From: Alphaproteobacteria bacterium
Lineage (GTDB): Bacteria; Pseudomonadota; Alphaproteobacteria; UBA8366; GCA-2717185
Direction of reading: 5' to 3'
Length of the DNA stretch: 64,000 nt
NCBI GenBank assembly: GCA_028822585.1
Contig: JAPKDL010000006.1
Coordinates: forward strand, 1 to 64,000
Shown here: piece after piece, positions 21,894-53,916 of the stretch
Layout: every line of letters starts with the position of its first letter
Numbering within the stretch: position 1 is the stretch's first letter
Position numbers and translations under genes: made by a program
Notes under the pieces: generated by a model
What the model saw: only the letters and a program-made list of their open reading frames with translations
Told to the model about the DNA's origin: nothing
Databases searched by the model: none

Positions 21894-22421
21894 TCAAACG
21901 ACCCCGAGTAAAATGTCGACACTGGCCGCGACAGCCTTTGACGCTTCTTCGTTTAATTTTTCCAAGGTCGCACTGCTGACCGGGTGATCGATCACCACAA
22001 AAGGATACCCATCGGCTCCCAATACTCGAGCCATTAGTTCCGCTGCGCTCACGAATTTAGTCGTCATAATTCCAATGGAGGGAATTCCGTTCCGGTCGGC
22101 TTCCACTGCATCATGCAAACTGCACGACGAGCAACTGCCTCAATCGCCAAGTCCGGCAATAAGGGCATCCCATTGTTGCGCCTCTTCCACAATATCCGCA
22201 TCGGCAGGCGCGCTGTAATTCGATTTGATGCGGCGAATAACTCTCGCCACACCGTATTTTTCAACCAACTCCTTTTCCATCATGTCGAAAAAGGGTTTGG
22301 TGCTTTTCTTTCCGTTTGAGATAACGCCAATTGTCATCCCGTCGAGCGTTTTCAAGCGCGGCGCCAAGGCAAATTCACGCGCTTCGCCTTCGTGGGTTGG
22401 GTCGAGTATTTCGAGGCTCAT
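21894..22421 (-). CDS. UGSC-type selenoprotein (TGA at 22140-22142 read as selenocysteine)
   Basis: ORFs 22140..22421 and 21894..22118 are in one frame, separated only by TGA: ...QQWDALIAGLGD-U-GSCSSCSLHDAVEADRNGIPSIGIMTTKF...LLGVV*. Same architecture in the paralog at 53389..53916. Confidence 0.85.
22109..22129 (-). promoter_or_regulatory. Candidate bacterial SECIS hairpin (locus 1)
   Basis: Starts 11 nt after UGA: CGUCGUGCA-GUU-UGCAUGAUG, 9 bp (two G-U), 3-nt loop beginning with G at +20. Confidence 0.7.
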
Positions 22422-22460
22422 AACGTCAAACCGCCTTTCTAAATTTAATGTCTATATCTA

Positions 22461-22520
22461 ACATATTTGATCTGCTGGTGGGCTAATTCACAGAAGGTTT
22501 GAAAACCAAAAAAATCGATT
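22461..22520. repeat. Partial copy of dispersed hairpin element (copy 3)
   Basis: tttgatctgctggtgggctaattcacagaaggtttgaaaaccaaa aligns with copies at 46164..46245 and 55221..55300. Confidence 0.45.
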
Positions 22521-22526
22521 AAACCT

Positions 22527-23606
22527 TTAGGGTTCACAGTCGATGCAGGCGCCAATGGCCATGGTCACCGCCTTACTCTTATGCCCAAGCCAAGGTGGAA
22601 TTACCGCGCCAAACCCACCGGCGGGGCCGCCCGCGGCGACTACCAACAGATGCTCCGGATCCGGCAACGCTGCATATTCATTATCGCCACGATGACCGAC
22701 GACAGCGCCTTTACCGCAATCGGCCCATTCCCGACGGAATATCCGTGCATTTTCAAAAACATATTTCTGTATATCAGCCTTGGACCAGCCAGCGTCCTTG
22801 AAATGCGTCCGTAGCTGAGGCGGAATGACAATGGCGTAGTTACCGGGCCAAATCGAATAGTGCCGCATGCTCGACTTTATTTCAGCCACAAAGGTGTCGA
22901 GGATTTCCGCCGGGTTGGTCGTCCATTCGTTCATTAATTGACGCGGCGCCCCCGCCGCCATTACCGTCACCGCCGACGCATGTTCGGGAACACCGCGTTC
23001 TTCAGCCAACGGCGGCCAGGATGAATTCGCCTCGTCTTCAGCTATGCAATAGCTAAGCTTACCCGGATGACCCAATGTGGAACGATCCACATCACCTGGT
23101 CGGGCGTCAAGAAGGTTGCACAGAATCAAGCGAATGGCACGGCCGATGACCGTGGTGGCGCGATCGCTGGATCCCAGCGCATTGAAAGTCCCGTCCATGC
23201 CCAGTTCATCGCGAACCGGACCATTAATAACGATAAGCACTGCGCAACCACCTGTGCTCGCCGTGGCACCGTGAAGCAAAAACGGTTCTTGAAGCATCGC
23301 AGTAAACGCCGCCACGACAACAGGGAAGTGCATGGGCAAACAGCCCGCCATGACGGCGTTAATAGCCAATTTTTCAGCGGTAATTGCACGCGCGCGCACC
23401 GTTTCCACGCCTACCAAATGATCGGAGGGCATCATAACCCAATCCAAACAGGCCTGAACTGCATTCGCCGTTGGCGGCACCACGGGCAGTCCGTCAGTCC
23501 ATTTTCGGCTGTGGTAAAACTCCTGCGCCGCCATCATGTCTTCGACATCGTAGCGTTTCGACATTAAGTTCATAGGGTCTTCCTTATTCCAACAAGGCTT
23601 TGCCAT
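22527..23606 (-). CDS. 'DGLP' family protein, uncharacterised; partner of UGSC selenoprotein
   Basis: WTDGLPVVPPT..., NAVMAGCLPMHFPVVVAAFTAML, DRATTVIGRAIRLILCNL.DARPGDVDRSTLGHPGKLSYCIAEDE shared with 52251..53324 and 51226..52278. Start may be MNLMSKRYD at 23573. Confidence 0.75.
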   Translation of the reverse strand: MAKPCWNKEDPMNLMSKRYDVEDMMAAQEFYHSRKWTDGLPVVPPTANAVQACLDWVMMPSDHLVGVETVRARAITAEKLAINAVMAGCLPMHFPVVVAAFTAMLQEPFLLHGATASTGGCAVLIVINGPVRDELGMDGTFNALGSSDRATTVIGRAIRLILCNLLDARPGDVDRSTLGHPGKLSYCIAEDEANSSWPPLAEERGVPEHASAVTVMAAGAPRQLMNEWTTNPAEILDTFVAEIKSSMRHYSIWPGNYAIVIPPQLRTHFKDAGWSKADIQKYVFENARIFRREWADCGKGAVVGHRGDNEYAALPDPEHLLVVAAGGPAGGFGAVIPPWLGHKSKAVTMAIGACIDCEP

Positions 23607-49219: not shown

Positions 49220-50320
49220 TTACGGGCTTGTAACCGTTCACGCCCCAGCTATCTCCAACTTTCTGCCCATTGGGCCCGTTCTGGTTGGCATGTTTCTCGG
49301 GTGGCGACCCCATCGCGCATCGGTCTGCCTGGCGCTTGGTGTATTCTTATTGGTGCATTTCACCATCAGCGCCATCACCGGATGGCCGCCAGCCAATGAC
49401 GCCTTTGGCCAAGTATTTTATCCCGCCGTTACCTTTCTCCTACCGGTCAATTTTATCATACTGACGTTTCTTGCGGATCAAGATTTTTTTCACGCCGGGG
49501 CTTATTGCGCATGTTCATCATTTTGGCGCGAACTGGAGCTATTTACTGGCTCACTTTATCCAATGGACCGGCAATTGGACACACCTACCACAGCCAACGT
49601 TAATCGTATTCACAATTTCGTTCGCCGCATTGATAGAGCGTTTATTTGTAACCACGTCAGCAGAACTTATCTGCGCCCTAACGGCCAACGCCGGAACCCG
49701 TCATTTCATCGCCAACCGTTTTGTCGTCGACGCATTTCTGACTGTCGCCGTGGTGACTTTGACCCTGGACGTTATCAAGGACGCCTATCAAACCTCATTC
49801 TTTAATAAGCTAACCCGAATCCCAGAGCGGCGCGCTTATGAGCGCCATGAAATAGTTCGAAAATTGATACGCTATCTCCATCTCTGATATAGATCACTGC
49901 AAAAAATTCAACGATCCGCACGGCCATGACACTCGCAATCAAGAGCAGAAAATACTGGCGACATGGTTGGCGCAGGCCAGCGGCGGCGGGACAGCCTATC
50001 GCTACGGTGGCGAAGAATTTACGATCCTTATACTCGGCCATGACATTGAACCCGCCTATGTTTACCTAGAAGAAAGCAGGCAACAGTTCGCGCAATCAAC
50101 ATTTCATATTCACGGCAGTGTGGGCCCTAAAAAGAAACCAAAAACAAGGCCGCTGGGATACGGCGCTCCGGTTTGTCGGTGACTATTCCAATTGGATTCG
50201 CCGAACCCCAAGAGCGCGGCGACAAACCCTCAACAATAATGATGACGACTGACAAGGCCCTGTACAGAGCAAAAAATGGCGGCAACAAAGTCTCTAAATA
50301 TGGCTTATCGCACGGCCTGA
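49220..50320 (+). pseudogene. Frameshifted membrane-anchored GGDEF (diguanylate cyclase) gene
   Basis: Hydrophobic N-terminal fragments, then ISDIDHCKKFNDPHGHDT...AQASGGGTAYRYGGEEFTILILG and VTIPIGFAEPQERGDKPSTIMMTTDKALYRAKNGGNKVSKY in different frames. Confidence 0.85.
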
Positions 50321-51222
50321 TGTATCCCCTGCGCCACCGTTTGGGCGTCGACCAATGCGTGAACAACCTGCCCGCCATATTGGGAACGGGTCGCACCAAT
50401 GGCATACAAACCGTTTTGATCCGTCTGCATATCGGCGCCCACGATCAAACCTCCGTAATCATCGCGCTTAGTCGTTTCTGGGGCGAGCGTGGTTTGCGGT
50501 GCTAGCCCAACAAACGGGAAGATGCCGTCAATCGCCATCGTTTCTTCGGCGTCCAACGACTGATCATACAACCGAACGGCGTCGACCCCATCGTCCCCGA
50601 TAATTTCTCGAACATCCGTATGCACGCGCAGGCGTACATTATTCTGACCCGTAACCTTGCCGACGAAACTCTGCCGCGCCCGCGGCGCCTGCCCCCGTAG
50701 AAGAATCGTGACATTTGCGCAGACTTCCGCCAGATGTAGCGCCTCTTGAAAGGCGGCATCCCCCCCGCCCACTACCACTACATCCTTGTCCCGATAAAGG
50801 CCGCCATCGCAGAACGCGCATTGGGAAACGCCTCGCCCCATCAACGCCGCCTCCCCTGCCACATCCAGATGGCGCAACTGCGCACCTGTCGCCAGGATGA
50901 CCCGCGGAACTATCACTTCCTCGTCACCAGACACGCGCCAATAATCACCGGCTGCAGTCAATTTGGCGACCGATCCCATTTGATAATCGACAGCCGCCTC
51001 CAGGGCTGCCCCCAGCATCGCGGTGACCAAATCGGCGCCAGCTTCGCCGTTATGGTTTGGGGGGCCATCTAGCGTACCGACGTTCGTGATCAATCCACCC
51101 AACATACCATCATCAAAAAGCGCCGTCTTCAAGCCAAGGCGCGCCACTTCTGTCGCGGCTGCAAGGCCCGCAACACCCGCGCCAATAACAGCAATCTGAT
51201 GGGTAAATTCAATTTTAGACAA
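50305..51222 (-). CDS. Thioredoxin reductase-like FAD/NAD(P) disulfide reductase
   Basis: AVIGAGVAGLAAATEVARLGLKTALFDD; GRGVSQCAFCDGGLYRDKDVVVVGGGDAAFQEALHLAEVCANVTILLRG (CxxC plus NAD(P) motif). Confidence 0.93.
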   Translation of the reverse strand: MSKIEFTHQIAVIGAGVAGLAAATEVARLGLKTALFDDGMLGGLITNVGTLDGPPNHNGEAGADLVTAMLGAALEAAVDYQMGSVAKLTAAGDYWRVSGDEEVIVPRVILATGAQLRHLDVAGEAALMGRGVSQCAFCDGGLYRDKDVVVVGGGDAAFQEALHLAEVCANVTILLRGQAPRARQSFVGKVTGQNNVRLRVHTDVREIIGDDGVDAVRLYDQSLDAEETMAIDGIFPFVGLAPQTTLAPETTKRDDYGGLIVGADMQTDQNGLYAIGATRSQYGGQVVHALVDAQTVAQGIHQAVR

Positions 51223-51225
51223 AGT

Positions 51226-52278
51226 TCAGCTCCGCAAATTTCGTATGGCCCTGGTGACCGACAGGACGCCACCGCCCCAAAGCGGCAGGTAGGTCATCTT
51301 GACCCCGGCGCCGCCAGTGATGATCGGGTGAATGTCCTCCGAACTGCGCGCAACCGGACGGTTTCTAGTGAAATCGGCGACCTTGGGCATCGAGACGCTG
51401 TCCGCGTTAAACAGGAAGTCTTGAACCCGCGCCAAATCCCATCCTCGATTTCGAATTCTTTCCGCCAGTTCCGGCGGCAACAGGAAAAACTGTTCCCCCG
51501 GTTCACGGTGGCGCCCGGCACTTGCGAGCGCGCCGCCTGTCGTGAGCGCGGCGGCCATGGCAGTTAGAACCGTTTCCGGCGTATCCGCATCATCGACCGG
51601 CAAGACCTCCACCGTTCCCGAAACCGCCAACACCGTCACCGCACTTTCGTCGGCGTTGAAGCCACGGCGCACCGCCAGAGACGGCGCCAACGCATCGACC
51701 CCTTCCGCGAAACAGAAAGTATATTTGCCCGGCTGTCCCATGGTCGCCATATCACCAACCAGCGCACGCGCGCCGCCAATATTGCGCATGACCAACGCGA
51801 TGGCGCGTCCCATCGTCGCATTGGCGCGGTTGCCTGGCCCTAACATATTCGTGCCAGAATTCATGCCTAGATCTTGCGCCAGCGGGCCATGCACGACCGT
51901 CGCAATGGCGGGCGTACCGGTTGTCGTTAGAACCCCCAACAGATTAAGTTTCGGCTCCAAACAGGCCTCGGCGGCTGTTAGCACGGCGGGCAATTCCGCC
52001 GGTCGACATCCAGCCAGCACGCAATTATACGCCACCGCCGCCGCCGTAAGATTACCAAACAACGGCGGAATCATGCCATAGGATTGCGCCGGATCGGCGA
52101 CCCCTTCCAGCATAGCCTCCAGCCGTTGATGCGTCGGCAAGACCATAGGCAAGCCATCATCTAGTTCGTGTTCCGCTAACACCGCCTGCGCCTCTTCCCA
52201 CAGCACAGACTCTGAAAATAACGGGCGCCCGTCTTTATCTTCCATAACTATCAGCGGCTCGGCAGCCGTTCCGAGCAC
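51226..52278 (-). CDS. 'DGLP' family protein, uncharacterised (paralog 2 at selenoprotein locus 2)
   Basis: ELDDGLPMVLPTHQRLEAML; NCVLAGCRPAELPAVLTAAEA; NMLGPGNRANATMGRAIALVMRNIGGARALVGDMATMGQPGKYTFCFAE. Confidence 0.75.
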   Translation of the reverse strand: MLGTAAEPLIVMEDKDGRPLFSESVLWEEAQAVLAEHELDDGLPMVLPTHQRLEAMLEGVADPAQSYGMIPPLFGNLTAAAVAYNCVLAGCRPAELPAVLTAAEACLEPKLNLLGVLTTTGTPAIATVVHGPLAQDLGMNSGTNMLGPGNRANATMGRAIALVMRNIGGARALVGDMATMGQPGKYTFCFAEGVDALAPSLAVRRGFNADESAVTVLAVSGTVEVLPVDDADTPETVLTAMAAALTTGGALASAGRHREPGEQFFLLPPELAERIRNRGWDLARVQDFLFNADSVSMPKVADFTRNRPVARSSEDIHPIITGGAGVKMTYLPLWGGGVLSVTRAIRNLRS

Positions 52279-53324
52279 ACCTCGGTAAAGCCAAACGTGG
52301 GAATAAATGCTGAGTGTTTACCGGGGCCACCGGCCACAAAAATTTGTATGTCATCCGGGGACCGACCCATATGGAAATGATCATTCACAATGACTTGATC
52401 GCGCTCTGCGAAATTACTTAGGTTTTCTTCGGAAACACGGGAGATATGAACCGCCGAAGCTTCATATAATTTTTCCTGCATATCCACGATGCTCCACCCG
52501 TCACGGAACAACGTCGCCGCGTGTTCCGGACCCAAGGCGATGAGATACGGCGCTGTACCATAAAGATTGTTTGACCCGATTTGCGCAACCGTGCCCGCAA
52601 TCGTCGTCAAAAGGCCTTCACCTGTCGTGCTGCCGTGGTCATTGATGTTATGCGGCGCTTCGCATGGCAGGGCGGTGACAACATTATCACTCACCTTAAA
52701 CCCTTGCCGGGCATGGTACGGCTCCCAGGGGCTTTCCTCTTCATTTTCACCAAAACAAAACGCGTATTTAGCGGGTGAACCCTGGGTGGATCGATCCATA
52801 ACACCAGGCTTAGCGCCGCCAACGTTCAACAACGTTAATTGCAGGGCGCGGCCAATCGTGGCGTTGGATCGATGCCCCTGACCAAAACAATTGCTACCGC
52901 AATTGATATCAAGGTCGAGCCGGATGGGTCCGTTCAACATCAACATGGGCGCACAAGGGTGCGTCGTCGCCAAGGTGCCGTGTAAATTATATTCAGGTTT
53001 CAGCACCGCACGTACAGCGGACACGACCACCGGAAAATATTCCGGACGACAACCCGCCATAACCGCATTCGCGGCGATACTCGACAGCGTCGGTAAAACG
53101 CGCCGCGGCGACATGGGAAGAAAGGGTTCGTTGTCGCCACGACAAATTTCAACGAAGCGCGCAACTTTTTCTTCTGTTGGCGCAACAAGCGGAAATCCAT
53201 CACTCCAGCCTTGTTCCAAGGCGTAGTCGTTCCATTCGTCGGAATCGAGCTCATCGAACTCAATCACTTCGCTGTCTTCTGCGTCTGACATTATTCCCCT
53301 CGCCTTAATCGTAAAACTACGCAA
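52251..53324 (-). CDS. 'DGLP' family protein, uncharacterised (paralog 1 at selenoprotein locus 2)
   Basis: GWSDGFPLVAPTEEKVARFVE; NAVMAGCRPEYFPVVVSAVRAVLKPEYNLHG; NCFGQGHRSNATIGRALQLTLLNVGGAKPGVMDRSTQGSPAKYAFCFGENEEESPWEPYHARQGF. Confidence 0.78.
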   Translation of the reverse strand: MRSFTIKARGIMSDAEDSEVIEFDELDSDEWNDYALEQGWSDGFPLVAPTEEKVARFVEICRGDNEPFLPMSPRRVLPTLSSIAANAVMAGCRPEYFPVVVSAVRAVLKPEYNLHGTLATTHPCAPMLMLNGPIRLDLDINCGSNCFGQGHRSNATIGRALQLTLLNVGGAKPGVMDRSTQGSPAKYAFCFGENEEESPWEPYHARQGFKVSDNVVTALPCEAPHNINDHGSTTGEGLLTTIAGTVAQIGSNNLYGTAPYLIALGPEHAATLFRDGWSIVDMQEKLYEASAVHISRVSEENLSNFAERDQVIVNDHFHMGRSPDDIQIFVAGGPGKHSAFIPTFGFTEVCSERLPSR

Positions 53325-53388
53325 TCGCCCTCACAATCGTCATTGTAGGGACAATTACAGGGGCGACTGGAAACAAGTCTAAACACCG

Positions 53389-53916
53389 TTAAACGCTAAC
53401 GGAGTCCTTCAAATTAGAAAATGCAGTACTGATACGGTCCGCCAGTTCCGCCTCGTTCAACCCCCCAACGGGATGCTTCACGATGAGCAATTTAGGCGAC
53501 GCTTTCCGCGCCTTAGCCTGCGCCTGGACAAGCGGCAGAAAGGTTTCAGTGATAACAATATAGGTTTCAACGCCGCGATTTTCGAGTTCGATACTGTCAT
53601 GGAAACTCCACGACGAGCACGACCCTCAATCAGCAAGTGCTAGTATAGCACCCTTGTAATTCGCCGCGAGCTTATCGATCAATTCAGGCGGCGCGGGTTT
53701 CGCGGCGCTGTCCTTATACAAATAATCGATGTTATCCGTCGACCTAAACACGCCCATTTGTTTACGCACGCCATCCAATAGTTCTTGAGCGTTGGGTTTT
53801 GAATTTGAAACGATCGCAATGGGGTCCTTCGCCCAATCGACTGAAAGTGTCTTTTCCACATCGCCTGGGCCGCCAGACTCATTCTGTAGGCCAAACGATG
53901 GATTAACGATCCGCAT
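53389..53916 (-). CDS. UGSC-type selenoprotein (TGA at 53626-53628 read as selenocysteine)
   Basis: MRIVNPSFGLQNE...NYKGAILALAD-U-GSCSSWSFHDSIELENRGVETYIVITETFLPLVQAQAKARKASPKLLIVKHPVGGLNEAELADRISTAFSNLKDSVSV*. The frame after TGA is absent from the ORF track because it has no ATG. AAGGAGG before ATG at 53916. Confidence 0.85.
53596..53614 (-). promoter_or_regulatory. Candidate bacterial SECIS hairpin (locus 2)
   Basis: GUCGUGGA-GUU-UCCAUGAC, 8 bp (one G-U), GUU loop starting at +20 after UGA, same position as locus 1. Confidence 0.7.

Follow-up and report, generated by a model that had tools for sequence, protein, structure and literature searches.

Selenoproteins of the UGSC family are common in the ocean, and the selenoproteome surveys consulted list them without a function or a partner. 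In the window, by which we mean the whole 64,000-nucleotide stretch of DNA analysed here, a UGSC gene is accompanied by one or two DGLP genes at two separate loci, and the DGLP protein of locus 1 ends in a CxxC motif. The question raised by locus 1 is what such a pair of proteins might do together, and what part the CxxC tail might play. The features are as follows.

21894..22421, minus strand: UGSC gene of locus 1 (PF24696), with Sec at codon 94 in the motif GDUGSCSSCSLHD (UxxCxxC)
22140..22142, minus strand: in-frame TGA of the locus 1 UGSC gene (codon 94), very probably read as Sec
22109..22129, minus strand: SECIS stem-loop of the locus 1 UGSC gene, at offsets 13-33 from the T of the TGA, with a 3-nt loop
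22527..23573, minus strand: DGLP gene of locus 1, 348 aa from the likelier start; the ORF extends to 23606 (359 aa)
22530..22547, minus strand: CIDCEP tail with the CxxC of the locus 1 DGLP (C354 and C357 in the numbering of the 359-aa ORF)
53398..53916, minus strand: UGSC selenoprotein of locus 2, with UGSCSSW and without the third Cys
52251..53324, minus strand: DGLP protein 1 of locus 2
51226..52278, minus strand: DGLP protein 2 of locus 2
50305..51222, minus strand: thioredoxin-reductase-like (TrxR-like) protein of locus 2, with a CAFC active site and a Pyr_redox_2 match (TIGR01292 at 211.8 bits, under the cut-off of 343)

The two loci and the decoding of selenocysteine

The DGLP ORF (23606..22527) and the UGSC gene (22421..21894) of locus 1 were found again where the preliminary description had placed them, both on the minus strand. 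Since homologs align from the second ATG (23573), where the Shine-Dalgarno sequence is also better, the 348-aa form of DGLP is the likelier one. Its C-terminus reads AVTMAIGACIDCEP and ends in GACIDCEP, and a search around locus 1 found no TrxR-like gene nearby; both points agree with what had been reported. The second pairing, likewise reported before, runs in the order UGSC, DGLP, DGLP, TrxR-like (53916..50305), and neither of its two DGLP copies has a C-terminal CxxC, as had been claimed.

The locus 1 UGSC protein scores above both curated cut-offs of its family, with 170.6 bits against PF24696 (cut-off 25) and 126.3 bits against NF041046 (cut-off 125). The TGA is kept at the same place for 150 of the 157 DGLP genes that have a UGSC neighbour. 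At a fixed distance 3' of it, a SECIS stem has 84.6% of its cells paired in 127 UGSC sequences; none of 500 shuffles exceeded 79.4%, and sliding the partner gave 46% at the highest. A compensatory change in the stem is seen between the UGSCSSC form (TGCAGTTTGCA) and the UGSCSSW form (TGGAGTTTCCA). The genome encodes tRNA-Sec (70 bits) as well as SelB (437 bits), the latter on the same contig. The features that define a UGSC selenoprotein, namely the UGSC motif with a TGA-encoded Sec, a SECIS element, and Sec machinery in the genome, were thus all found, and the TGA of the locus 1 gene very probably encodes Sec.

Pairing of UGSC with DGLP

The source genome holds five UGSC genes, all with the TGA, and seven DGLP genes, and each UGSC gene adjoins a DGLP gene. 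Among 40 related genomes, UGSC and DGLP are present in an identical set of 22; among 399 genomes across the phylum, they are present in an identical set of six, which fall in six families. With random placement the probability of identical sets in the 399-genome sample would be about 2e-13, a figure that relatedness makes less extreme. A UGSC gene lies at most 1.5 kb away at 132 of 137 DGLP blocks; as most of the collected blocks came from DGLP queries, this count measures adjacency in a non-independent sample, and the two genome-level samples are the cleaner test of linkage. On contig C254, UGSC and DGLP follow each other within a single ORF. The pairing is still present where Cys replaces Sec in UGSC (L147, L188, and L192). 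Overall, the pairing goes far beyond chance. Shared occurrence, adjacency, and fusion of the two genes lend strong support to the functional linkage proposed in the preliminary description.

Single-ORF fusions of UGSC and DGLP were seen at L023:1110-2753 (the ORF on contig C254), L177, L178, and L137, with the motif UGxC(A/S)(T/S)AC, and most of them carry a C-terminal GCxxxxC pair. A fusion of UGSC with a domain called Unknown_1 is mentioned in PMC2398784, and Unknown_1 is possibly DGLP. An orphan DGLP of the locus 2 type lies just outside the window (contig C262:64944-65927; L022:4936-5949), with UGSC absent within the fetched 14 kb, and L180 is another orphan. One pair of the locus 1 type (G005:C17:69478-71109; L033 and L212), with internal stops and frameshifts in DGLP and a broken UGSC, is apparently decaying or misassembled.

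In 21 of the 22 carriers among the related genomes, there are 3 to 10 UGSC matches. Since multiple divergent paralogs occur per genome, several substrates are suggested, and these probably differ between paralogs. When only Pfam-checked clusters were used, the recurrent neighbours of the pairs were CoA-transferases, SDRs, acyl-CoA dehydrogenases, TauD, and GMC enzymes. Type III CoA-transferases recur close to pairs of the locus 1 type; however, they say little because the source genome has about 70 CoA-transferases, and a substrate deduced from them was not adopted. Of the genes next to locus 1, those for the Mo-hydroxylase, the FAD enzyme, and HAD do not generally accompany the pair elsewhere. 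These neighbours also bear on the idea that the pair serves to handle metals or metalloids (e.g. mercury or arsenic), with Sec and the CxxC tail as ligands. Sec and Cys ligands have been proposed for metals in the Sao and UXX-star selenoproteins (PMC13188914), but metal-resistance genes are absent among the recurrent neighbours, and we regard this idea as highly improbable.

Relationship of UGSC to protein B, and the nature of DGLP

The GrdB model TIGR01917 was matched by 18 of 44 UGSC sequences at E <=1 (best 2.3e-6), and the PrdB model TIGR04483 by 15 of the 44 (best 6e-4); other UGSC sequences match the sarcosine and betaine B models. The UGSC protein of the window shows this relation at E 0.001, with 18.1 bits against a curated GrdB/PrdB cut-off of 602. 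Sequence comparison makes UGSC a homolog of the Sec domain in protein B of glycine/D-proline reductase, as a distant relative and not as a member. GrdB is the selenoprotein that binds the substrate in an enzyme system which thioredoxin recharges, and PrdB is a 26 kDa homolog of GrdB (PMC13188914); the UxxCxxC motif has been described for GrdB/F/H (PMC6778437). In the source genome, short and weak matches to GRDB (PF07355) also occur at L182, L185, L186, and L187 (contigs C69, C194, C167, and C236, respectively); they have no in-frame TGA and were rejected as UGSC genes.

The AF2 model of UGSC (pLDDT 94) has alternating strands and helices in a five-strand Rossmann/flavodoxin-like arrangement, with Sec predicted at the N-end of a helix, and its top fold matches are lumazine synthase, PTS IIB, and flavodoxin-like proteins. 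A thioredoxin-like fold was suggested for UGSC in PMC2398784; the Rossmann/flavodoxin-like model predicted here speaks against it.

By alignment, DGLP is a conserved protein family for which Pfam and NCBIfam have no existing model: searches against both collections gave no family match, and no relatives were found in the PDB by sequence. Its AF2 model reaches a pLDDT of 91, and the fold search with it gave no convincing match (TM 0.2-0.3, rmsd ~12-17). In 54 diverse members, D38, N83, R156, N164, D174, K183, and E190 are invariant and C89 has one variant, a set that looks like an enzyme active site. DGLP might accordingly be thought a hydrolase, lyase, or hydratase, for which the Sec of UGSC primes the substrate as a covalent nucleophile, with a net non-reductive reaction and cysteines that only protect Sec. 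Such an enzyme would fit the strong conservation of these polar residues (D, N, R, D, K, E, and C), and the fold search ranked class I fumarase and the cyclic amide hydrolases highest. However, those matches are too weak to convince, both folds were rejected for DGLP on the values above, and the dithiol tails and TrxR neighbours described below point to electron input; we consider this explanation improbable.

Compared with the glycine reductase system, the DGLP-UGSC pair resembles GrdB/F/H with GrdE/G/I in its homologous Sec domain, the UxxCxxC motif, the presence of a partner subunit, and, as proposed below, reduction by a thioredoxin system. It differs in size (UGSC has ~175 aa, whereas GrdB/F/H have ~430), in a partner without detectable relation to GrdE, and in its loci, where no GrdA, GrdC, or GrdD component was seen. 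The hosts differ as well: most are bacteria of the sea or of soil and belong to several phyla, in contrast to the clostridia of the Grd system. With PrdA/PrdB the pair shares the combination of a small Sec subunit and a larger partner; however, homology of DGLP to PrdA was not detected, DGLP members match neither PF09338 (pyruvoyl proprotein) nor any NCBIfam model, and there is no sign of pyruvoyl formation. A search with PF09338 gave no match in the source genome, and control genomes likewise gave none.

Dithiols of DGLP and the proposed supply of electrons

A lack of conservation of the CxxC among locus-1-type homologs had been set beforehand as what would refute the idea of the tail. This refutation does not hold. 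Among homologs with at least 55% identity to the window DGLP copy, the motif is kept in 37 of the 39 complete ones, typically as GxC[ILV][DNE]C, across Alpha- and Gammaproteobacteria, Acidimicrobiia, SAR324, Myxococcota, and Binatia as judged by record titles; of the two exceptions, L090 is a frameshift and L114 is the most distant homolog. Judged by the aligned sequences, the C-terminal CxxC is a real feature of locus-1-type DGLP. It is probably mobile, since in the AF2 model it is located in a low-confidence C-terminal stretch (last-block pLDDT 57) that is predicted to be disordered. Other DGLP clades have C-terminal Cys pairs such as CVDGTC, GCADDLC, and CGPAGC, and some have instead an N-terminal thioredoxin-like domain (CPTC/CETC). 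Two such proteins are L020:6229-7632 and L021:7118-8545 (CETC and CPTC); the thioredoxin-like domain of the latter gave no match in NCBIfam.

Locus-2-type pairs adjoin a TrxR-like gene not only in the window but also in several relatives, and such a gene is found beside the fusion loci L175 and L176. A TrxR-like neighbour occurs at 0 of 80 loci whose DGLP has its own dithiol and at about 8 of 56 loci without one (Fisher p ~6e-4, or 0.055 with 3-kb-flank loci only, relatedness being uncorrected in both). In the sampled loci, own dithiol and TrxR-like neighbour thus exclude each other. This is the part that stands of the expectation that single-DGLP loci carry the CxxC and two-DGLP loci a TrxR-like gene. 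As a rule it fails, because among the 117 single-DGLP loci that lack TrxR there are 39 with no Cys-pair tail and no Trx domain either, several multi-DGLP loci show no TrxR-like gene (L164 and L168, of the locus 2 type and with adequate flanks), and one single-DGLP type (L051/L052) has one. At 48 of the 56 dithiol-less loci TrxR is absent too, and no local electron donor is seen. The earlier suggestion that the CxxC might replace the missing reductase agrees with the exclusion; the replacement of the reductase step itself goes further than these counts, and reduction of the tail presumably still falls to a general Trx/TrxR.

The most economical scheme, which we favour at slightly less than an even chance, is that DGLP and UGSC are two components of one selenoenzyme of the GrdB/PrdB type, in which the tail or another dithiol re-reduces the Sec. 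The shared genomes, the adjacency, the fusions, the relation to GrdB/PrdB, the conserved tail, the covariation with the third Cys described below, and the confinement of TrxR-like neighbours to DGLPs that lack a dithiol favour it; the 48 loci with no local donor, and the lack of homology of DGLP to GrdE or PrdA and of a convincing fold match, speak against it. UGSC would be the Sec domain of protein B in the form of a separate protein. DGLP, through D38, N83, R156, N164, D174, K183, E190, and C89, may bind and activate the substrate, and by analogy it would play toward UGSC the role of GrdE or PrdA toward GrdB or PrdB. The selenolate (U of UxxCxxC) would attack the substrate, after which the neighbouring Cys would close it into an Se-S bond. 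We infer that the chemistry is reductive and that electrons run from a dithiol, which would reopen the oxidised Se-S bond and whose source would vary by clade: the C-terminal CxxC tail at locus 1, other Cys pairs, the N-terminal thioredoxin-like domain, or the TrxR-like flavoprotein at locus 2.

It is also conceivable, though unlikely, that the pair serves detoxification in the manner of a selenol/thiol peroxidase or disulfide reductase, with Sec reducing a peroxide or mixed disulfide and the CxxC tail as the resolving group, so that it would provide redox protection rather than carbon-heteroatom cleavage. Thiol oxidoreductases typically have UxxC motifs and dithiol donors, a Trx-like domain and a TrxR-like gene are associated with the pair, and many of the bacteria that carry it come from marine surface waters or soil and are likely aerobic, judging by record titles. 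However, UGSC is predicted to have neither a Trx nor a peroxiredoxin fold, its relatives are GrdB and PrdB, and divergent paralogs per genome together with catabolic neighbours fit substrate diversification better than a general defence.

With the GrdB/PrdB-type selenoenzyme, the obligate partner, the fusions, the homology to glycine/proline reductase, and the modular dithiol supply would make of UGSC a concrete two-protein enzyme candidate. In a broader and somewhat more tentative form, DGLP-UGSC pairs of marine and soil bacteria may be widespread, unrecognised two-component selenium reductases that combine GrdB/PrdB-like Sec chemistry with a substrate-binding partner of new fold, paralogs for different organic substrates, and an electron donor wired into each of them. 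If the chemistry is reductive cleavage, Stickland-type selenium chemistry would take place in probably aerobic marine bacteria.

The third Cys of UGSC, scored as that of UxxCxxC or one residue later in fusions, varies together with the dithiol of DGLP. Among 95 non-redundant pairs it is present with 52 of 52 DGLPs that have their own dithiol and with 8 of 43 that do not. This covariation is suggestive only, as the pattern amounts to about seven changes on the tree, with which an independent-pairs test cannot reach significance, and as the third-Cys codon falls inside the SECIS stem; it was not accepted as proof of a relay. A further variant of the motif, UGSSSPW (read in L173), belongs to the UGSC genes at L173:4687-5121 and L174:4498-4932, in which the TGA is kept and the resolving Cys is gone.
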